Positions 33,218 through 45,921 of a stretch of DNA of 64,000 bases are shown here, in pieces. Both the position numbers and the translations under genes were made by a program. The stretch is from Pseudobdellovibrionaceae bacterium. Its GTDB lineage: Bacteria > Bdellovibrionota > Bdellovibrionia > Bdellovibrionales > Bdellovibrionaceae. Position 1 is the stretch's first letter. Every line of letters begins with the position of its first letter. The notes below the pieces were generated by a model. The model was not told the DNA's origin. It worked only from the letters and a program-made list of their open reading frames with translations, and did not search any database. The stretch lies in assembly GCA_947449255.1 (NCBI GenBank), contig CANFQX010000001.1, positions 124,001 to 188,000 of the forward strand. Reading direction: 5' to 3'.

Positions 33218-33823
33218 ATGAATTCACAAATTAAAGTTGCAATCACTGGTGGCCCTTCTGGGGGAAAAACAACTCTCATCGAGACTATTAAAAAAGATCT
33301 GGGTCAAAAATGCGCCGTGGTTCCAGAAGCAGCGAGTATCTTATATCGTGGAGGATTCCCTCGCTACAAAGAAGAGCTTTGTGTCGCACAAGCTCAACTT
33401 GCGATTTACCACACCCAACATGCACTTGAAGACATGATCTGCGGTATGAGCCAAAAAGGTCTTGTGGTCTGTGACCGAGGCACTATGGACAGCTTAGCTT
33501 ACTGGCCAATGGTCGAGGATGAGTTCTTCAAAAAAGTTCAAAGCAATCGCGCCAGAGAATTGGCTCGCTATGATTGGGTCATTCATCTAGATACAGCTTC
33601 TATTGATTACTACGACACTTCAAACCCAATCAGGACTGAAAACTTTGAAGAGGCTTGGTCATTGAATTCAAAAATAAAAGAGGCCTGGGCCGGGCACCCT
33701 CGTCGTTTGATCATCACACATAATGCTGATTTCATTTCCAAGATAACGACATCTCTTGCCATCATCAGAGCCATTATGAATCACGCAAGCGCCGAAGAAA
33801 TATCAAAGACTCTTTTAGTGTGA
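33218..33823 (+). CDS. AAA-family ATPase (AAA_28/NadR-kinase-like)
   Basis: Walker A GGPSGGKTT; VVCDRGTMDSLAYWP. Confidence 0.75.
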   Translation: MNSQIKVAITGGPSGGKTTLIETIKKDLGQKCAVVPEAASILYRGGFPRYKEELCVAQAQLAIYHTQHALEDMICGMSQKGLVVCDRGTMDSLAYWPMVEDEFFKKVQSNRARELARYDWVIHLDTASIDYYDTSNPIRTENFEEAWSLNSKIKEAWAGHPRRLIITHNADFISKITTSLAIIRAIMNHASAEEISKTLLV

Positions 33824-35625
33824 AAATTCAAAATCGAATGGTCAAAAAAGAAAAAATCACTTTCGCTCAATTACTTCTTACTTCAATTCTGATTTATGGC
33901 CTCCAAGGCCTTTCAAGTCCCATAAACTCGGAAAAAGAAATCAATTCAAACAATCTATCTCCACTCCCCTTCAGTGCTAAACTTAACAATGTTCAACTTC
34001 CTCCTCAAAGGTTTGAATACTCTCTCTGGGATGAAGATCGATTGTCCGTAGGAAATATCCTCATTGATTCGACCCAGCTGACATTTCAAATCAGCCCGTC
34101 TTCAAAAAAAACAAATAATTATAATGTTCAATTCACATGGCCAAGCGGACTGATGAAAAACGGCCATCTGAATATAAGAAATAATTCTGGAAAATCTATC
34201 TTTACTAGCGCGTTCAACACAGACAACATCACTATATCTAAGGGCAAAGGCATAGAAAATCGTGCAAATCTGCGCTCAGAAATTGCGACTTTTACAGTCA
34301 AAGATCTAGGTCCCGATTTTATAGAAAGCATGCGCAATTTGCCATTCCTCATATTTTGCGTCTATCGAGAAACAGAGTTAACTAAAATAAATATTTGCTC
34401 CAAGGAGCTCTACCTCTCCACTCAAAAGGGCAAAATAATGATCAAGCCCCGAAACCTTAACAAAAGAAATGCCCAAGTCGAAATTAATGGCGCAAAAACC
34501 GGAAATCAGGGCGTCATTTATTTGAATGACAGCAAGGAAACAATTAATTTTAAAAGCCAGACGCAATCAGGATCCTTCCTTGAAATGGATATTCGCACGA
34601 AAGATGTCTATTTCATGGACATCTTTCAGGATGGGGACGATATTATATTAACTGCGACCGGGACCGAGCCTGCGGATGAAAATATTTTTAAAAAAATTTC
34701 TGAAGCCACCTGGAGCATCAAACTCCCAAAAATTAGACCTGTCATTTATCTTAAAGGTGACGGAGACTTCCCCCTGCGGCAGGAGCTCAACATTCGTGGA
34801 CCTATTCCAAATTCTTCGAATCGGATATACATTGATAAAGACGCAACTGCAAAAACTTACAGCTCCACTCAAGAAATTCAGGTCACACCACCGAAAGAAA
34901 CTAAGATTGCTCTGCCAAAATCAGACACTTCAGCTTCACTTAAAAATATTGATGGCGAACATTATTTGTGGCAAATAAATGAAATCCCAAAGGGGTTAGA
35001 TCACCGGTATTTGAAATTAAACGTCGACAACACCACCTTCACTGCCAGCTTTGAGACCAACAGGGCTCCAGCATACTCTCTTTATCTTGGTGGCAACTAT
35101 AATCTTTCAGCAAATAAAAGCTCAATCCGAGCAGAGCTAGAGTGGTGGTTTGATAAGTTTCTCAAACTGAATTCTTCATGGTCAAAAAATCACTGGGGAA
35201 TGAATTTAAACCAAGATAACAATTCAAACACCTCAGGACTTGAGTTGCTCTGGAGATCAAAGCAAGGCATCCACATGGCTGAAAACACTTGGGGCCTAAC
35301 TCTTGGACTTCAAATGCCTAACTCAAACAACTCTGGTTTGCTAGTTTATGGTTTAGGTTTTTTTCTGCAAAAATCACTAGCTCAGAGTGCTATGCAAAAT
35401 TTTATGAATTTCTTTGAATTTAAAATTCATCAATATTTTAGCTCAGAGAGCGACCCCCAGAGATCTCATGGATTAGATTTCAACATGCAGGCCTATAAAA
35501 ATATTTTTGGACAACAATATCTATTTTTCCGCTATGGATTAGAAATTTCTCAGAACAATAGCGACGCCCCCAATAGCAATGAATTTCAAACACAACTTCA
35601 TTCGGGTATATCCTGGAAATTTTAG
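33820..35625 (+). CDS. Surface/outer-membrane hypothetical protein, paralogue of 53280-55358
   Basis: LPPQRFEYSLWDEDRLSVGNILIDSTQLTFQI matches LPPLEFEYELSTDGTQLKLGNLNISDSTFAFNI; strand-rich C-terminus ending in Phe. Confidence 0.65.
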   Translation: MKIQNRMVKKEKITFAQLLLTSILIYGLQGLSSPINSEKEINSNNLSPLPFSAKLNNVQLPPQRFEYSLWDEDRLSVGNILIDSTQLTFQISPSSKKTNNYNVQFTWPSGLMKNGHLNIRNNSGKSIFTSAFNTDNITISKGKGIENRANLRSEIATFTVKDLGPDFIESMRNLPFLIFCVYRETELTKINICSKELYLSTQKGKIMIKPRNLNKRNAQVEINGAKTGNQGVIYLNDSKETINFKSQTQSGSFLEMDIRTKDVYFMDIFQDGDDIILTATGTEPADENIFKKISEATWSIKLPKIRPVIYLKGDGDFPLRQELNIRGPIPNSSNRIYIDKDATAKTYSSTQEIQVTPPKETKIALPKSDTSASLKNIDGEHYLWQINEIPKGLDHRYLKLNVDNTTFTASFETNRAPAYSLYLGGNYNLSANKSSIRAELEWWFDKFLKLNSSWSKNHWGMNLNQDNNSNTSGLELLWRSKQGIHMAENTWGLTLGLQMPNSNNSGLLVYGLGFFLQKSLAQSAMQNFMNFFEFKIHQYFSSESDPQRSHGLDFNMQAYKNIFGQQYLFFRYGLEISQNNSDAPNSNEFQTQLHSGISWKF

Positions 35626-35629
35626 GGTT

Positions 35630-37567
35630 TTATTTTTTCTTAAATAAGCCGGTCAGCATTTCTTTTATGTCCATATTAAAGACATCTTGTTTTTTATTTA
35701 TTGATTCTAAAATTGAAATTTCACGGCGCGCCGGCATAAAGGTGGAATCTAGGCCAACGCTTTTTTCAAAAAATTTTCTTGCACCTGCTAAATCACCTCT
35801 ATTCTTACTGACCAATCCGTTCACAAAAGAAAATAGTGCATCGTATTTTTCATCAGCTGGTACTTGCAATAATTCAAGTTCAATTTCCCTCAAAATACTG
35901 CCCTTTTTAGTTGGATCTATAGGCATTCCCAACTTAGCCCAGGAATTATAAATATGAAATTGATGGGCCTGAGGATTTAATATAGCGACTTGCAATAATT
36001 TTGAGGTCGCTAGACTGAATTGATTTAAGTGAAGTGTCTTCCTCACTTCCTCCATTAAGTGCCCAGCTTGAATCCTTGCTTCAGAATCATTTCGGGCTAC
36101 TTCCTCGCGATACCTATCAATCTTCGTCGAGTCCAAGGACATCGACACAGCCTCTTCCACCGTGTATTTTATTTTACTCCACAAAGAATGCACGACCTTG
36201 TCACTTGCATGGGGCTCATTTCCAATGAGCTCGGAAAAAGAATGCATCATAACGTCTATGTTATTTGTCGAAAAACCGCACTTGTCTAAGTACGTAATAA
36301 TTTGAAATTCGTTTTTACCTTTTAAGTTATCCCATAACTTATTCAAGGAGCTTAACTGCTCCGCGGAGGAGGAAAAAATAGCTTTAGGCGCAAAAACAAC
36401 CAATCCCTTTATGAGCATAAAATACAATCCCTTATAGACCGTAATTTCATTATAGTCAGCAACATCCAGGAGCTGATTTAGGGTCACTTTTTTATCTAGA
36501 CGATTTTCAATACCCTCCAAACTCTTGACCAAAGGCAATTCTAGAGCAGCATTATCTTCTTTAAAATTTGAAGTTTTTAAAATAGCATTCTCAGACCAGA
36601 TCATGAAGAAAGACTTGAGCCAGTTCAATGAAATTTTGGCAGCGATCCAGTCATGCATAAATATAAGCAAATCATCTGAGCCTATGGAAGGATTCAACAT
36701 CTCAACATCAGAAGGTGCAAAATTGATACTCATCTTTTCTTCAACCATACGGCTTAACAATCGAAGATTCATCTGCTCTTTTAAAATAAAGTCAAAGGCA
36801 TGGGGACTGAGCTGATTGTTTTCAATCAAAAAGCTTCCCAGTCGTCTTTTTTTCTTTTCGACGAGTGCTAATTGTATATCTTGAGCATTGCAATAGCCAC
36901 TTTGTATAAGCATTTCACCGACAAGAGACTTTCCATCTCCAATATCAACACCAACAATACTGCCATGAGAGAACGCGATCACAGAAATGGACCCGTTCAC
37001 ATTGTAAATATTCAAAAAACCTGTGCTTTTAGCCTCAACAAGCAAAGACAAAACTAGAGGCAAATCGAAGCCACTGATTTGATCGACTGATTCAATAATT
37101 CTTTTCTTTTGACTTGAGCTTGCGGCTTGATTCGTAAAGATTTGATACAAACTCTTTCGAGCCTCTACTTCATTAGTTACATTAATTTTGGCCTCTTCAA
37201 CGGCAATAAGATCTAAAACATCACTCAACTGGAAAGGCTTGACCAAAAAAGCATAGGCCTGTGTTTTTTTTAAGGCCTCTTGAATAAAAGATTTATCTGT
37301 GTAAATGCCGCTCATCAAAATAATCTTAAATCGTGCACTGGGAAAGTTTTTTCCAATTTCATCAACAAAATCAAGCCCCGTCATTTGAGGCAACAGACAA
37401 TCACAAAACAAAAAATCAATCTGATTTAACTTAATATTTTCACTGGCGGAATCTGGATCAGAGGCAACAAATACTCGATGACCGGCACGCTCTAAAGTTT
37501 CCTTCAAAGCCGAACCAATTGTTTCATCATCATCAAGAATCAGGATATTTATCTTTTTTTCTTCCAC
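35630..37567 (-). CDS. Response regulator (REC) with DUF4388-like and repeat regions
   Basis: INILILDDDETIGSALKETLERAGHRV...DFLFCDCLLPQMTGLDFVDEI...FLVKPF; GFLNIYNVNGSISVIAFSHGSIVGVDIG. Confidence 0.78.
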   Translation of the reverse strand: MEEKKINILILDDDETIGSALKETLERAGHRVFVASDPDSASENIKLNQIDFLFCDCLLPQMTGLDFVDEIGKNFPSARFKIILMSGIYTDKSFIQEALKKTQAYAFLVKPFQLSDVLDLIAVEEAKINVTNEVEARKSLYQIFTNQAASSSQKKRIIESVDQISGFDLPLVLSLLVEAKSTGFLNIYNVNGSISVIAFSHGSIVGVDIGDGKSLVGEMLIQSGYCNAQDIQLALVEKKKRRLGSFLIENNQLSPHAFDFILKEQMNLRLLSRMVEEKMSINFAPSDVEMLNPSIGSDDLLIFMHDWIAAKISLNWLKSFFMIWSENAILKTSNFKEDNAALELPLVKSLEGIENRLDKKVTLNQLLDVADYNEITVYKGLYFMLIKGLVVFAPKAIFSSSAEQLSSLNKLWDNLKGKNEFQIITYLDKCGFSTNNIDVMMHSFSELIGNEPHASDKVVHSLWSKIKYTVEEAVSMSLDSTKIDRYREEVARNDSEARIQAGHLMEEVRKTLHLNQFSLATSKLLQVAILNPQAHQFHIYNSWAKLGMPIDPTKKGSILREIELELLQVPADEKYDALFSFVNGLVSKNRGDLAGARKFFEKSVGLDSTFMPARREISILESINKKQDVFNMDIKEMLTGLFKKK

Positions 37568-37714
37568 GTTGGGCTTATCGGAAGGATAAAAAATTTATTG
37601 AATCAAAGACCAAGATACAGGCTGCTTTACAAAAACTAGACCTTTGAGCCTCAAATGAGCGTTCAATTGGAACTACACAAACAAAAAATTGATCTGTTTA
37701 AATTAGTAAAAAAA

Positions 37715-38194
37715 TCACTTCTTACTTATAAATTTAAAATACTTCGCTTCAATAACGTCCATCTCCATGGGGCTGCCATCGGCATCTAATACAGAATCTG
37801 GGGGCCTCAATCCATTCTCGGAAAATTCAGTTCCATATTGAAACAAGATGCTTTTTTCAGTCCCATTTTTATCACTGTAATAGGGTACATAAAACGATCT
37901 AACTTTTCCAGTCGCTGGCAAAAAACCATCTACCATATTGATTTGATCGACAATAAGCTTAGCACAATTGACGTAGGTGATGGGCGCATCGCCAGCCGTT
38001 CTAATCCATTTTATCCACTCCCGTATTCCACAAGAATTGATACCTTTAACCAAGGATAGGTCAATTTCCAAAGAAGGATACCCAGAAAGATTGAATTTAT
38101 TAAAATCCACATCTTCATCAATAACACCAACCAATTGAAGTGTCGTTCTATCCTTATCCTTTACTAATTTAATATCAAATTTGCCCATCATCAT
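37715..38194 (-). CDS. STAS-like domain protein (ORF to 38239; start at ATG near 38194 likely)
   Basis: TTLQLVGVIDEDVDF...LEIDLSLVKGINSCGIREWIKWI, resembling the anti-anti-sigma STAS core. Confidence 0.5.
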   Translation of the reverse strand: MMMGKFDIKLVKDKDRTTLQLVGVIDEDVDFNKFNLSGYPSLEIDLSLVKGINSCGIREWIKWIRTAGDAPITYVNCAKLIVDQINMVDGFLPATGKVRSFYVPYYSDKNGTEKSILFQYGTEFSENGLRPPDSVLDADGSPMEMDVIEAKYFKFISKK

Positions 38195-38222
38195 CTCCAA
38201 GAAAAAAATATATATAGAAAAG

Positions 38223-40136
38223 TTAACCCAATCCCTCATTTTTTACGACAAAAAATGTGACGTCATCGATCAATGTGGCTCCACCACGATGACCTTGTAA
38301 ACTCGCCGTAAAAATAGCCACAGTCTCTGCCGCAGAGGCATTGTCTTTTGAGGCTGCAATCAGTGCTTTGATAAAAGCCCTTTCACCCCAGGATTTTTTT
38401 TTGGGATCTTGAATATCTGTAACTCCATCAGTGTAGAAAAAAATGAGGTCCCCACTCCCCAAGGTCATCTGAGTCTCTTGATAGACCGAGTCTCTTGATT
38501 GCCCTAAACGAGGATTATTGACCTCATTGAGAGGAATGAGGTCATTCTTCGTTAAAGGGATATCACTTTTTCGTAGAACCAAAGGGGCCTCGTGAGATGC
38601 ATTTGAATAAATCAGCTCACCCGTCCCGAAGTCAAATGACGCCAGAAAAAATGTCATCATGATCCGACCTTTTGAGACATCATAGATAGAACGATTTAAA
38701 AGTTCCATGGCTTTAGCTGGAGACACATTTAAAGTTTCGATGATCGTTGATGCAGATTTGGCAGCACTTGTAATCAAAGCCGCCGGCGCACCATGCCCAG
38801 TGGCATCACCAATCCACAAAAACATTTTAGAACCCACTTGGCAATAATGCCACCAATCTCCACCGCATTCGCTTGCCGGTTCATAATATCCAGAAATTGC
38901 TAAACCACCAATTTTAGCCAACGTCTCAGGAAATAGTGTCTCCTGGACTGTTTTTGCAGTTTGAAGCTCTGACTCCATTCGAGCTTTTTCTGCAGTCTGC
39001 TCCAAAAGTCTAGAAACTTCCAAGGCCATAATATTGAAGTTATTTGCAAGACTGCCGACTTCGTCTCTTGAGCTCACTTTGACTCTGATATCAAAATTTC
39101 CTTCAGAAACTTTTTTGGTCGCGATAAACAGATCCGTTAAAGCTTGGGTTAATCCATTCGAAGCAAACAAACTCACAATAACCGTTACTGAAATTAGAAT
39201 CCCAAAGAAAATCAAAGATTTTCGAATCAAAATCTGAACGGCACTCAGAGCGGACTTCTTGCGAACAGATGAAACCACAGTCAAGTCCCCAAAACCTACT
39301 CTGGAAAAAGAAGCCAACAGCTCTGTCCCATCAGCCATGCGAACGCCTTCAACACCCTGTACGATTTTATCCATGGAACGAGCTAAAAATGACGGCTTCA
39401 TAAATGATTGCATTTTTTTGCCAGAAACCTGCTCTGGGCCAAACAAGACCGTCCCGTCAGAATTTATTAAATAAATTTTTCGTGAAGTCACTGTATTGAA
39501 GGTCTCTGCCAGCTCACTCATTTTTATTTGAACTAGAAAGATTGTCACTCTTTGAGTCTTTTCATCACTCACTTTTTCAAAAAGAAAAACCCGGTCGTCT
39601 TGAAATGGCACAGCAACCAATCGCCCATCTTTGTTCGCTTTTTTAAGATAGTCATCAAACAGAACTTTAAATGCATTTGTTAATTTTGAAGTGCCTCCGA
39701 CTTCTTTTTCAAGAACAGCCACCTCTTTAAAGTCACCCAACGAAGACACCGTATAGGCTGAAATAGATTCGACATTGAATTCATTCTTAAAAATTAAATC
39801 TCCAACACTGGTAAATTTTTGCTCTAATAGAAAATCTTGAAATATGGGCCGCGTGATAGAGAGCACTGAGTTTAGCTGAGTCTTCATTTGAGCTGCAATA
39901 GATCCAGACATACTGCTAGAAGAATCAAAGACATAGGCGATCTTATCATCTTCAAAGATTTTCACTGCCAGCACCAAATAAATTGCCAAAGTTAGCAAAG
40001 GAATTGACGTCAATAAAAAAAGAATTTTGTATCGAATTGATATGCCACTTTTATTCACAGTCTGATTATGCCCACGTTTCAATCTAGCGGAAAGAAATTC
40101 CCTTCCGATCTTTATTGTATCTGGTCTTTGGTCCAT
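38223..40136 (-). CDS. Membrane HAMP-domain SpoIIE-family (PP2C-like) serine phosphatase
   Basis: HAMP linker; GYYEPASECGGDWWHY, LWIGDATGHGAPAALITS, DLIFFYTDGVTDIQDP. Confidence 0.88.
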   Translation of the reverse strand: MDQRPDTIKIGREFLSARLKRGHNQTVNKSGISIRYKILFLLTSIPLLTLAIYLVLAVKIFEDDKIAYVFDSSSSMSGSIAAQMKTQLNSVLSITRPIFQDFLLEQKFTSVGDLIFKNEFNVESISAYTVSSLGDFKEVAVLEKEVGGTSKLTNAFKVLFDDYLKKANKDGRLVAVPFQDDRVFLFEKVSDEKTQRVTIFLVQIKMSELAETFNTVTSRKIYLINSDGTVLFGPEQVSGKKMQSFMKPSFLARSMDKIVQGVEGVRMADGTELLASFSRVGFGDLTVVSSVRKKSALSAVQILIRKSLIFFGILISVTVIVSLFASNGLTQALTDLFIATKKVSEGNFDIRVKVSSRDEVGSLANNFNIMALEVSRLLEQTAEKARMESELQTAKTVQETLFPETLAKIGGLAISGYYEPASECGGDWWHYCQVGSKMFLWIGDATGHGAPAALITSAAKSASTIIETLNVSPAKAMELLNRSIYDVSKGRIMMTFFLASFDFGTGELIYSNASHEAPLVLRKSDIPLTKNDLIPLNEVNNPRLGQSRDSVYQETQMTLGSGDLIFFYTDGVTDIQDPKKKSWGERAFIKALIAASKDNASAAETVAIFTASLQGHRGGATLIDDVTFFVVKNEGLG

Positions 40137-40181
40137 TATATTTCTACCTCTAGACTACCGATATGAAAACCTAGAGGCTGA

Positions 40182-42353
40182 ATGTTAGATTTGAGAGCAA
40201 CTGATAAATTTATTTTTATGATCGCTACACTATTTTTAGTGTTGCTATCTTATTTGCTCTATGACGACTCTTTTTTTACTTCTTCAAAAACTTCAGCAAA
40301 CTTAAAAAACATTGGCTCTGTCTCCATCACACAAAATGATGTCAGAAGAAAAAACTTAGACACCTTCAGTTGGATCCCCGCGTCTAAGAAAGACTTGATC
40401 TTTCAGAATGACTCCATTTTTACAGGTGATCGTTCGATTGCAACTATCAATATGGATGATGGAACTCAGATTCACCTTGAGCCGAACTCACTCATTTCGT
40501 TAAGCATCGCCAAGGGCGAAATGAAACTTAACCTTCGCTACGGAAACTTAGTGAGTGATATCGCCAAGGACTCCACCCTAGTTGTTAAATCAGGCAACGA
40601 TGAAATAAAACTACAGGGCTCAACAAAGAAAAATGAAAAATCTCAAATCCGTTTAAAAAAAGTCCATTCAGAGTCTGTTGGTTTAAAGCTCATTTCTGGT
40701 GCGGCCCTATTGATTGATAAAAAGAAGCAAGCCAAAACAGAGCTCACCAAGGATTCAATCACCTCCATGAATTCTGAAGGAGAAATCAAGAAAGCTTTAG
40801 CTATCCCGATAACAATAAATGTCACCAATGCTAAATCTGAAAGAGTCAGAATAAGCCCCTTTGATCCCATTGGATTTGAATGGTCAAGCACCGGAGATGT
40901 TTCGCGCTATGAGCTAGAGTTTTCAAAGACCGAGGATTTTAGTGTTGTCATCCTCTCAAAAAAAACAACTGAGCGAAAAATACAATTGCTCGAATTTTTG
41001 GAGGCCGGAACAACTTATTGGCGAGTCAAAGCCTTTGATGAAATGGAACAAGAAGCGAAAGTCTCATCAGTGCAGTCCCTTTCATTGCGATACATGGATC
41101 CTCCATTGATCTTGAGCCCGATTGCACTCTCTGAATTGAATTTAGCGTTAGAACAAGATGAAGGTCAAACTCAGCCACTCATGACATCACTGAAGATGCA
41201 ATGGCAAGCCCCCGCTATTTTTAAAACCTTTAGGTATCAAATAAGCACAGATGCTGAATTTACAAATATTATCAAGCAAGACGCCACCACTCAATTGGAA
41301 ATGTTCAGTCCAAATTTGCCTAGCGGTGCCTATTGGATACGGGTTGCGGCACAAACGGAAAAGAAAGTTTCATCCAACTGGTCTGCCAAGGTCCCTTTTA
41401 AAATAAATCTCTCGGTGAAAATGGATAGAGCTCCAAATAGGCCTTTGCTAATGACTGAAAAGGTTAAATTCAATACCTCTGAAGATAAAAAACGCACCTT
41501 GGCCTCCAGCTTTGGCCCCCAAATAGAGTGGAAAAACCTTCCTGAGGCTGCCAAATATAAAGTTCAAATATCAAAAACAAAGGACTTTCAAGACAGCGAA
41601 ACTATCGAGTCCGTCAAGAATGAAATCGTTTGGGATAAATTTAAACTGGGCCTTTTTTACTTTCGCGTCTATGCCCTCAGTAAAAAAGATAAGATAAGCG
41701 AACCGAGCAAAACAGGATATCTCCAAGTTCAAATGACAAGCCCTCATTTAAATTCAATTCATCCGCTCGAGGCAGCAGGTGAGACTATTCCCAAAAAAGA
41801 GGCTTTAGTCACTTGGACCAAGATACCTGAAGCAACGTCTTACATTGTCCAGCTCAGTGAGGATGATAATTTTTCATCCCCTCAGAATTTTGAATTCGAA
41901 GCCAATAGTGCACAGTTGTCTGTCACAAAACCTGGCCAGTACAAAGTCCATGTCAAAGCTATGAATAGCTATAAAGAACCCATCACACCCTACTCAAGTA
42001 CAGAGTCATTTATTTATAAATTCAGTTTAAGGCTTAGAACGCCCACTCCTCTTGAGCCCTACAACAATTCATCAATATTTTTACAAAAACTCGAAGAACC
42101 TTCCATTTGGATTGAATGGAATAAAACACAAGGAGCGGAAGAATATTTATTAGAAATATCAGAAGATCCTGATTTCAGTCATGTCATCACATCAAAGAGT
42201 CTTGAAAACAATTTCGTACTTATCAACGAAAAACTCCCTCCTGGAAAAATTTATTGGAGAGTTCGATCGCAGACAAAAAATAGAAAAGTTTTTTCGGACT
42301 GGACCCTGACTCAAGAGTTTACTATTTACAATCAAAAGAATGAAACTTTTTAG
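40182..42353 (+). CDS. FecR-domain protein with multiple FN3-like repeats
   Basis: N-terminal TM; FecR-like FQNDSIFTGDRSIATINMDDGTQIHLEPNSLISL; repeated W...YxxxIS.D..F.....YWRV pattern. Confidence 0.72.
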   Translation: MLDLRATDKFIFMIATLFLVLLSYLLYDDSFFTSSKTSANLKNIGSVSITQNDVRRKNLDTFSWIPASKKDLIFQNDSIFTGDRSIATINMDDGTQIHLEPNSLISLSIAKGEMKLNLRYGNLVSDIAKDSTLVVKSGNDEIKLQGSTKKNEKSQIRLKKVHSESVGLKLISGAALLIDKKKQAKTELTKDSITSMNSEGEIKKALAIPITINVTNAKSERVRISPFDPIGFEWSSTGDVSRYELEFSKTEDFSVVILSKKTTERKIQLLEFLEAGTTYWRVKAFDEMEQEAKVSSVQSLSLRYMDPPLILSPIALSELNLALEQDEGQTQPLMTSLKMQWQAPAIFKTFRYQISTDAEFTNIIKQDATTQLEMFSPNLPSGAYWIRVAAQTEKKVSSNWSAKVPFKINLSVKMDRAPNRPLLMTEKVKFNTSEDKKRTLASSFGPQIEWKNLPEAAKYKVQISKTKDFQDSETIESVKNEIVWDKFKLGLFYFRVYALSKKDKISEPSKTGYLQVQMTSPHLNSIHPLEAAGETIPKKEALVTWTKIPEATSYIVQLSEDDNFSSPQNFEFEANSAQLSVTKPGQYKVHVKAMNSYKEPITPYSSTESFIYKFSLRLRTPTPLEPYNNSSIFLQKLEEPSIWIEWNKTQGAEEYLLEISEDPDFSHVITSKSLENNFVLINEKLPPGKIYWRVRSQTKNRKVFSDWTLTQEFTIYNQKNETF

Positions 42354-42355
42354 AC

Positions 42356-44335
42356 ATGAAAAACAATTACTTTATATTCGACACTCTACTGGAACCCATC
42401 TTTATCCTTAATTCTGAACAAAAGGTTGTGTACTGCAACGAAGCCGCTGCGTTGATTGCAGGACTATCCGTTAGAAAAATATCAAAGGGAATAGATTTTT
42501 TTAGCCTTTTTTCATTTACCGAAAACATATGGGAAAATAAAAATATTCAAGAAATCACCACGCCCAGCTCCTACAAAGAAGTCTCCTACACTGCCACCAA
42601 CGGTGACAGTGGTGCAATACAAATCATGATTCAGCCACTTCCAGAAGACAATTCAAAATCACCGGACGGCAGTGACGAAGAACAGAGCGACAACAGCCAA
42701 GCCAAAAAACTCTGGATTATCTTTATTCGCGATGTGACATTAGAGCAACGACTTCAAAAAAAATATCGCAATGAGCTTCAAAAAAAAGAGGACGTCATTC
42801 AAGCCCTCAATGAAGCTCACGTCCAGCTGGAAAATTACAGTAAAAATCTAGAAGGCATGGTTGTCGTCCGAACTGCCGAAATTCAATATATAAACCAGCT
42901 CATGACTGCCCTTTTAGACAGTTTAACTCAAGGCTTTTTTATATTTAACAAAGATGGGAAAATTTTAGAGTTTTCGTCAAAGGCCTGTGAATTCACAATC
43001 GAATGCAAGCCTCAAGGAAAATACATCTGGGAGGTTTTAAAGCTTCCCGAAAATAAAATCCTGGGCTTTAAAAAATGGATTCAAGTCCTTTTTTCTGGTG
43101 CTTTGTCTTTCGAGGAACTTGCCCCTCTAGGTACAAAGGAATATCCTCACAGCGAAAAGCGAAACATCACCTTAGAATATTTTCCACTCTCCTCAGATAT
43201 GGGCGAACTTGAAGGTGTGGTGGTTGTCGCCTCAGACATCACATCACTGATTGAGGCGCAGCGCCTTTCTGAACAAGAAAAAAACCATTCGAAGCTCATC
43301 ATCAATCTCATACGAAACAAAAAGAACATTGGCCGATTTATACGTGAGTCAAAGGCTTTAATCTGTGAAATGCACACCACTCTAACTGTCCCCGCGGCAC
43401 AACTGAACGCCGAATGCTTATTTCGGCAAATTCACACACTCAAGGGCAGTGCGGGAATTTTATCCATTCAACAAATGATAGAATCCTGCCACTATGCTGA
43501 AACTCTCCTGCAAAAATTTAAAGAAAACCCAACAGCAAGTGCCCTGCAAGAACTTCAGGCAGAGTCTCATATTATTGATTCTAACTTTTCTGATTTTGTA
43601 AAGATGAGTGAAGAGATTCTCGGGCTTAATACATTATCCTCTGAGCGACAAATCGAAATCCCGATCTCCAAATTAAAGCAAACCCTTACGAAAGCAGAAC
43701 TTGCGAATTCCCCAATGACAGAACTCTTTCTGAATGATTTTATCCTTGAGAGCATTGGGAACTTTTTTGTGAGCTTTAACATTGCCGCTGAGCAAATGGC
43801 AAAAAAAACAGACAAGTTGATCAATCCCATTGAACTTTGTAATGCCGACTTAAAAATATTACCGGAAGCCTATTCTAGTTTATTTTCATCATTCATTCAT
43901 GCCATCGGCAACGCCATTGACCACGGGATTGAAACGCCAGCGGTCAGAGAATTAAATAATAAATCAGCGGCCGGAAATATAAAGATTTCCTTTGAGCACT
44001 CTAAAAACAATCGATTAACTGTCTGTGTCGAAGATGATGGGGCAGGTATAGATGCTGAAAAAATTCGCCTACGCTTAAATTCAAAGGGGATAAAGAACTC
44101 ACATGAATCTGACAGCGAAGTTATTCAGCATATTTTTGACAGTCAATTTTCCACTCGAGAGCAGGTCACAGTGCTTTCAGGTCGCGGAGTTGGGATGGAC
44201 GCCATCAGACATGCAGCAGAGGCACTTGGCGGGAGCGCTTGGGTTACCTCTGAATGCAAAAAGGGAACTTCTCTGTTTGTCGAGGTTCCTTTCATTAATA
44301 CATTTGAATACGAAAAAATAAAATTGGCTTCATGA
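42356..44335 (+). CDS. PAS-Hpt-CheA-like histidine kinase without recognisable CheW-like P5 domain
   Basis: PAS-like N-terminus; Hpt IHTLKGSAGILS; HATPase AIGNAIDHGIETPAVR...VEDDGAGIDAEKIRLRLNSKGI...LSGRGVGMDAIRHA. Confidence 0.83.
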   Translation: MKNNYFIFDTLLEPIFILNSEQKVVYCNEAAALIAGLSVRKISKGIDFFSLFSFTENIWENKNIQEITTPSSYKEVSYTATNGDSGAIQIMIQPLPEDNSKSPDGSDEEQSDNSQAKKLWIIFIRDVTLEQRLQKKYRNELQKKEDVIQALNEAHVQLENYSKNLEGMVVVRTAEIQYINQLMTALLDSLTQGFFIFNKDGKILEFSSKACEFTIECKPQGKYIWEVLKLPENKILGFKKWIQVLFSGALSFEELAPLGTKEYPHSEKRNITLEYFPLSSDMGELEGVVVVASDITSLIEAQRLSEQEKNHSKLIINLIRNKKNIGRFIRESKALICEMHTTLTVPAAQLNAECLFRQIHTLKGSAGILSIQQMIESCHYAETLLQKFKENPTASALQELQAESHIIDSNFSDFVKMSEEILGLNTLSSERQIEIPISKLKQTLTKAELANSPMTELFLNDFILESIGNFFVSFNIAAEQMAKKTDKLINPIELCNADLKILPEAYSSLFSSFIHAIGNAIDHGIETPAVRELNNKSAAGNIKISFEHSKNNRLTVCVEDDGAGIDAEKIRLRLNSKGIKNSHESDSEVIQHIFDSQFSTREQVTVLSGRGVGMDAIRHAAEALGGSAWVTSECKKGTSLFVEVPFINTFEYEKIKLAS

Positions 44336-44386
44336 ACATTTTGTTCGAAAGAACCGAAACGCATATCTAAACCATCGGCGACTTGC

Positions 44387-44815
44387 TTATGACTTCTGCA
44401 AGTGCTTCTGCTGTTTTACCCACACGGCATTCAACTTTTCTTCAAGAATCTTTTTGGTAAACGGCTTGACGATGAAATTTGAAATCCCCGCAAGAATAGC
44501 GGTTGTCACTTGCTCGAGTTCAGATTCAGAGGTCAGCATGACAAAGGGAACTGGCCCCAGAGCGGGCATTGCACGAACCTGCTTAAACAGCTCCATACCA
44601 TCCATAGTAGGCATATTCCAGTCAGAAATAATCAATTGCACGGGCTCACGACTCTTTAGGCACTGAGTAAGAACAGCCATTGCTTTTTCACCATCTGAGG
44701 CCTCAATAATATCAGATAAGCCCATATCCATGAGGTTGTTTTTTACTAAGGTACGTATAGACCCCATATCATCGACGATGAGAATTTTTGTGCTTGCTGG
44801 AAACATTCGACTCAA
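44387..44815 (-). CDS. CheY-like single-domain response regulator
   Basis: KILIVDDMGSIRTLVKNNL...LIISDWNMPTMDGMELFKQVR...VMLTSES...FIVKPFT. Confidence 0.92.
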   Translation of the reverse strand: MSRMFPASTKILIVDDMGSIRTLVKNNLMDMGLSDIIEASDGEKAMAVLTQCLKSREPVQLIISDWNMPTMDGMELFKQVRAMPALGPVPFVMLTSESELEQVTTAILAGISNFIVKPFTKKILEEKLNAVWVKQQKHLQKS

Positions 44816-44863: not shown

Positions 44864-45745
44864 TTAATAACCTGGACTTTCGCCCGACTTAAGCCACAGA
44901 TAGTCGGCTCTGATCTCATTGCCAGCGGTGGGTTGTACTTCCAACTGTATTTCATCCAAGGTCATTCCTGAGGTATTTATGAGTGAAAAAGTCGTTACTG
45001 GCAAAGCTGGAGCACGGGCTCGAATTCGATCTGGCAATCCTCCTCCAAATTGAACATGAAAGTCGCCCACAATGATAACTAAAACCTGATCCCCATGTGA
45101 TTTGATATACTCAGTAGCGACCCATGCCATGGTGTCATCCCAAATGGATTGGGCCGTAAAATACCGTTCTCCGGCCTCCTTATTTGGAAAATGACTCCCC
45201 ATGTAATGAAAAAATCGATTTTTATAAGAATTTCGCCCTAAAGAAAAGACTGGCGGCAACAAACGCATTTCTAATTCTGTTAATGCACTCAGACCTAACT
45301 TACTCACTTTGCCTGTCAATGAACGAGGAGCATTGAGGGCCACGGTATGGGCTCCCTCATTGATCATAGGAAACAGGACCTGAGGTCGATAAAAATCATA
45401 CGAAAAGCCCGTCCATTGAATACGGCTAAGAAATTCTGCCTCGGGGACTTTTCCCTCTCGATAGTCTTCCAAAATAGCTTGATCGGTGTATGTAAAAAAC
45501 TCCATGCCCAAGGCCACGTTGAGACCTTTTTTTCTGAGTTGATTGAGGATGTCCAATTGTTGATTTTGATGAATCTGTAGGGCATGATTCTCACCAACAA
45601 TAAGGATGGACCCCGCTGATACGGAATCAAGAGACTGATCCAAGCTGACGGATTGGAGATCTCCCCCTTTAATTATGCCCTCAATTTGGGCATAAGTTTC
45701 CTCTGAAAAGAGAGCTAAGACAGCAAAAAGCACCACTAACTTCAT
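44864..45745 (-). CDS. ChaN/Tiki-superfamily protein (ORF to 45850; ATG 45745 likely)
   Basis: ILIVGENHALQIHQNQQLDILNQL...ALGMEFF...QSIWDDTMAW...VIIVGDFHVQFGGGLPDRI. Confidence 0.83.
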   Translation of the reverse strand: MKLVVLFAVLALFSEETYAQIEGIIKGGDLQSVSLDQSLDSVSAGSILIVGENHALQIHQNQQLDILNQLRKKGLNVALGMEFFTYTDQAILEDYREGKVPEAEFLSRIQWTGFSYDFYRPQVLFPMINEGAHTVALNAPRSLTGKVSKLGLSALTELEMRLLPPVFSLGRNSYKNRFFHYMGSHFPNKEAGERYFTAQSIWDDTMAWVATEYIKSHGDQVLVIIVGDFHVQFGGGLPDRIRARAPALPVTTFSLINTSGMTLDEIQLEVQPTAGNEIRADYLWLKSGESPGY

Positions 45746-45921
45746 ATTCCCCCCTTTGAATTGAAATTGCCTATTGAAGTTTGATACTTCATTTGGTACT
45801 TTGTCACCCTTTGATAGGATATTGTCAGTTTTTAGTATTTCGCATAACAATGAACGACTCTATCTCTTATTTATGATGAACAAGCATCACAACGAAACTG
45901 TGATTTAGACAGGGGCATAAA

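Follow-up and report, generated by a model that had tools for sequence, protein, structure and literature searches.

A 64,000-nucleotide stretch of DNA from a Pseudobdellovibrionaceae bacterium (the window) carries a conserved composite module, which combines known partner-switching and phosphorelay parts. No description of it was found in the literature searched, and neither STAS nor phosphatase genes are mentioned in the main text of the Tn-seq paper. The explanation that we favor, at a probability of about one half, is a membrane-sensed partner switch coupled to an Hpt/CheA-like relay that would end in a REC-PATAN protein and not in a sigma factor. The earlier note on this DNA had named a lack of co-conservation in related genomes as counting against the system; this objection fails, as the set recurs across Bdellovibrionota, and one composite system is well supported since the gene linkage outlasts rearrangement.

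Gene content and conservation of the module

The six open reading frames lie where the earlier note had placed them. The minus strand encodes a response regulator with Pfam matches to REC and to DUF4388, which we take to be the PATAN domain, followed by a C-terminal region (35630..37567), a STAS-only protein recognized via orthologue profiles and AlphaFold/Foldseek (37715..38194, start at 38194, 38191 or 38188), and a membrane dCache-like/HAMP/SpoIIE (PP2C) phosphatase assigned via Pfam, with intact catalytic residues (38223..40136). A divergent intergenic gap (40137..40181), indeed of 45 bp as described before, separates these from the plus-strand genes of a FecR protein with FN3-like repeats and a single hydrophobic anchor near its N-terminus (40182..42353; Pfam) and, after the 2 nt already described, of a PAS-PAS-Hpt-HATPase_c kinase (42356..44335; Pfam). 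The FecR-FN3 label held for FecR in Pfam, but FN3 was not named there and gave weak Ig-like matches only. Similarly, the reading as two divergent arms applies to the 45-bp gap but not to the single-domain CheY-like regulator (44387..44815, minus strand; Pfam), the gene of which is convergent with and tail to tail with the kinase gene and belongs to the transcript of neither arm. A scan for sigma-70 promoters returned matches no commoner than in shuffled sequence, and 11 terminator-like elements were found versus 7.3 in shuffles.

Sequence searches were performed in 40 relatives, and neighborhoods of up to 20 kb were compared. The genes for REC-DUF4388, STAS, SpoIIE, FecR-FN3 and the kinase occur together in all genus members drawn and also in a second genus of the same family; CheY mostly adjoins the kinase, is up to about 2.7 kb apart in some genomes and was not found on the short contig L104. 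Other families have the genes on a single strand in the order SpoIIE, RsbW-like ATPase, STAS, kinase, CheY and REC-DUF4388, with FecR-FN3 often divergent from SpoIIE. The module exists in at least two gene orders across Bdellovibrionota. Of the 80 loci that a scan of named genomes yielded, nearly all bear Bdellovibrionota or Bdellovibrio-like labels and a few bear broader or odd ones, e.g., one Streptomyces-labelled MAG. In a phylogeny of 63 phosphatases, the kinase changed its orientation relative to STAS once. A full-length or nearly full-length kinase is present in 52 of 241 genomes of the phylum and is no more than about 6 kb away from STAS in 48 of these 52, both figures being tallied by hand from tables and including many near relatives, which makes them non-independent. 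A putative outer-membrane protein (33820-35625, plus strand) and a ChaN-like protein (44864-45850, minus strand) lie on either side of the module in the whole genus and in some of the family; since neither flank adjoins it in the other families drawn, its ends were set at REC-DUF4388 and CheY.

The STAS protein and its putative switch kinase

As a single sequence, the STAS-like ORF of the window gave no Pfam match; among 75 orthologues, seven touched PF01740 (STAS) and 20 touched TIGR00377 (anti-sigma antagonist). The predicted STAS fold is confirmed by an AlphaFold model (pLDDT 93.9, pTM 0.87) and by Foldseek, which ranked anti-sigma antagonists first among PDB structures (best E-value 8.9e-5), with matches to 4hyl, to SpoIIAA in its SpoIIAB complexes and to RsbV in the RsbV/RsbW complex. 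Ser52 (157-amino-acid numbering; codon 38035-38033) lies at the position of SpoIIAA Ser58, and this serine is invariant in 83/83 sequences. An apparent overlap of the STAS and SpoIIE ORFs, considered as translational coupling, was rejected because the STAS start had been over-called: a GGAG motif and the three ATG codons listed above agree with the conserved STAS N-terminus. A further STAS paralogue of this family, which stands alone with no switch partners recognized alongside and retains the conserved serine, is encoded on contig C6 of the same genome (L127:2733-3215).

The earlier statement that no RsbW-like kinase is present is correct for this locus but not beyond it, as a homologous ATPase domain is encoded elsewhere in the genome. 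In most relatives, the SpoIIE and STAS genes have an RsbW-like ATPase gene between them, which is gone in the clade of the window. SpoIIE and STAS are separated either by less than about 90 bp or by about 700-860 bp (one exception at 521), and the longer gap is the place of the RsbW-like gene. In the phosphatase tree, the window falls within a clade of 29 rows (support 99) that lacks the local ATPase gene; six of the seven rows of the sister clade have kept it, and its presence or absence changes six times in all. The local ATPase is distant from the Pfam families, with only sub-threshold Pfam matches to HATPase_c_2 and HATPase_c and below-cut-off matches to RsbW-type families, and a PDB sequence search with its profile gave no match. 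The same profile finds a 476-amino-acid protein in the window's own genome on another contig (L166:7680-9110, minus strand). This protein comprises a cNMP-binding domain (E-value 2.6e-10), a receiver-like region recognized by eye and from weak response-regulator matches of one orthologue, and an ATPase domain homologous to the local ATPase (hhalign probability 99.2%); Foldseek of the fused ATPase gave mainly cNMP-domain matches among the matches listed.

The fused ATPase occurs in 40/53 STAS-positive as compared to 0/20 STAS-negative genomes of the order. Within the order, 47 genomes have the kinase, and the fused ATPase was found in 30 of the 31 of these without the local gene and in nine of the 16 with it (Fisher p 0.001, which weakens to 0.04 if the genus is entered as a single case, kinship being ignored); one genome (G229) has STAS and kinase and neither ATPase. 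These distributions suggest, with moderate confidence because the counts were made by hand and are uncorrected for phylogeny, that the role of the switch kinase passed to the fused protein. The fused gene looks split in two genomes, with separated fragments in G012 (L172:7679-10556) and a frame change in G004 (L165:1468-2971), either of which could be a real disruption or an assembly error. Furthermore, contig C6 of the window's genome holds a second partner-switch locus (L128:7186-12429), in the order of an outward-facing RsbW-like ATPase gene, a STAS paralogue, another ATPase-like gene, a FIST protein and a SpoIIE phosphatase; in two outgroups, similar ribD, trmH-like and epimerase-like genes adjoin the main module.

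Proposed signaling route and alternative explanations

On the input side, HAMP and SpoIIE domains of the phosphatase were matched, the dCache-like part gave a Pfam match below cut-off, and the metal-binding Asp of SpoIIE (PP2C) is invariant (59/59). FecR-FN3 accompanies SpoIIE at 41 of the 46 loci having enough upstream sequence and at none of the 15 loci lacking SpoIIE, and is the likely envelope partner of the phosphatase. FecR-like genes also lie, divergently, near other SpoIIE paralogues (L121, L133, L134, L135). On the relay side, the kinase is CheA-like without a CheW-like domain and ends with its HATPase domain; the Hpt His (His360 in the window kinase) is invariant in 65/65 sequences, as are the Asp of CheY (57/57) and that of REC (60/60). 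The REC-DUF4388 protein is the sole DUF4388 match in the genome, and its orthologues show TPR matches in the C-terminal region. A DnaJ-type HPD motif is frequent in the orthologues of relatives with the other gene order and absent from the window protein and its close relatives; two orthologues (L109:6774-8708 and L114:12550-14493) display a DnaJ-like segment with the HPD motif as well as TPR matches.

Following this, we propose that an envelope signal is perceived by the membrane SpoIIE phosphatase, probably together with the FecR-FN3 protein, and that the phosphatase would take the phosphate off the conserved STAS serine, while the RsbW-like ATPase would set the opposite STAS state. In the lineage of the window, this ATPase was probably replaced by the cNMP-binding/receiver-like/RsbW-like fusion. 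The STAS protein, or a partner released by it, would then tune the Hpt-CheA-like kinase, which may phosphorylate CheY and the REC-PATAN protein, the latter being the proposed output protein of the module. The module might act through contact between proteins and not through a sigma factor, with the pole or surface motility as possible targets; this last suggestion is only an analogy to cyanobacterial PATAN-REC proteins, which are tied to the type IV pilus machinery (PMC7690835).

A tentative proposal, in which we place clearly less confidence, is that the partner switch targets the histidine phosphorelay directly, i.e., that STAS or its RsbW-like partner gates the CheA-like kinase and thus the REC-PATAN protein, the switch kinase having given way to one that is gated by cyclic nucleotides, is encoded elsewhere and would supply a second-messenger input. 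Slightly less probable again is a sigma switch, in which STAS would free an unlinked sigma factor from the RsbW-like anti-sigma kinase, here the fused cNMP-ATPase, and the Hpt kinase would be an added regulatory input or a mere neighbor. The earlier note had reasoned from the missing RsbW-like kinase that the output may not be a sigma switch, which needs revision as the loci of relatives do carry such an ATPase and the window's genome keeps a homologous domain elsewhere. In favor of a sigma switch, SpoIIE, RsbW-like and STAS proteins form the core of such systems, and SpoIIAA/RsbV-type antagonists are the closest matches of the STAS model. However, the relay genes stay by STAS even without SpoIIE (L201, L208, L217), and a non-sigma output is still the better guess, although not proven, because no sigma factor gene was recognized in the parts of the neighboring loci read.

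It is unlikely that the SpoIIE/STAS switch and the Hpt-kinase/CheY/REC relay are independent neighbors that exchange no signal. Consistent with independence, the window has two divergent transcripts plus a convergent CheY gene, and half-modules exist, namely SpoIIE-RsbW-STAS without the kinase and RsbW-STAS-kinase-CheY-REC without SpoIIE, so coupling of the two arms is not obligatory. Moreover, a FliA-type site lies on one arm only in the genus: TAAA-N15/16-[AG]CCGATA precedes the FecR-kinase operon at 12 loci (background 0.005 per 330 nt), a thirteenth listed match (L105) sitting at a different position, and resembles the published attack-phase FliA consensus TTAAG-N16-CCGATA (PMC3627812). 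As most members of the genus that were sampled possess the site, it suggests expression in the attack phase, a hint for the genus and not for the window, because the site found there by motif scan (40136-40163, plus strand, weak and mostly inside the divergent gap) has a good -10 (CCGATA) and a poor -35, and a scan of the window's whole genome with the strict consensus showed no enrichment (5 matches versus 7 in the reversed control). By contrast, other families display a one-strand apparent operon with STAS adjoining the kinase (L203, L222, L229), and the linkage holds phylum-wide. Quite improbable is phosphorylation of the STAS serine by the Hpt kinase's own ATPase domain where the RsbW-like gene was lost, which would need no protein in trans: this domain is the sole ATPase left in the locus and has a weak RsbW match (E-value 0.023), but the kinase is CheA-like with an invariant Hpt histidine, arguing for a histidine kinase, and 30/31 genomes without the local gene possess the fused RsbW-like protein.

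Comparison with known systems

A partner switch coupled to an Hpt/CheA-like relay would join in one module two kinds of protein switch that are normally studied apart. With its defined set of genes, the module lends itself to knock-out studies of the interplay between envelope signals, cyclic nucleotides and a phosphorelay in a predatory bacterium. A conserved operon that has cleanly lost a central kinase gene, while the active sites of the kinase's partners were kept, is a natural experiment in rewiring. The module resembles the RsbU/RsbV/RsbW and SpoIIE/SpoIIAA/SpoIIAB switches in its SpoIIE phosphatase with intact PP2C metal sites, its STAS protein with the conserved phospho-serine position and the adjacent RsbW-like ATPase of relatives; unlike these, the window has no RsbW-like gene in the locus, no linked sigma factor was seen, and an Hpt-CheA/CheY/REC relay is linked. 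Weak matches of the ATPase to NF047703 and of STAS to NF047705, below any useful cut-off, suggest a distant relationship to the slr1658/slr1659 pair, the function of which is not established in the portions of the literature found.

In SiaABCD of Pseudomonas aeruginosa, a membrane HAMP-PP2C phosphatase likewise acts on a phospho-switch protein with non-sigma output (PMC7647112, PMC8457831), and SiaA was the best NCBIfam model for the window phosphatase, at 63 bits versus a cut-off of 700. However, its switch protein belongs to another family than the STAS protein, and unlike in SiaABCD no GGDEF protein (diguanylate cyclase) is among the six genes. The HptB-HsbR-HsbA system of P. aeruginosa, in which an Hpt relay feeds a PP2C/STAS switch for lifestyle and motility (PMC6482189, PMC8256260), shares with the module the combination of a histidine phosphorelay (Hpt) and a PP2C/STAS partner switch. 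HsbR, by contrast, unites REC, phosphatase and kinase in one protein and targets FlgM/RpoS, whereas the phosphatase described here is a dCache-like/HAMP membrane sensor without REC, and the module has an Hpt-CheA-like kinase and a separate REC-PATAN protein. The six genes gave no matches to a CheW-like domain, MCP or CheW, as distinct from chemotaxis CheA/CheY systems. Finally, the domain order and C-terminal part of the cyanobacterial PATAN-REC proteins PixE and PixG differ from those of the REC-PATAN protein, but these proteins are similar to the proposed route of the module in placing a receiver and a PATAN domain downstream of CheA-like signaling (PMC7690835).
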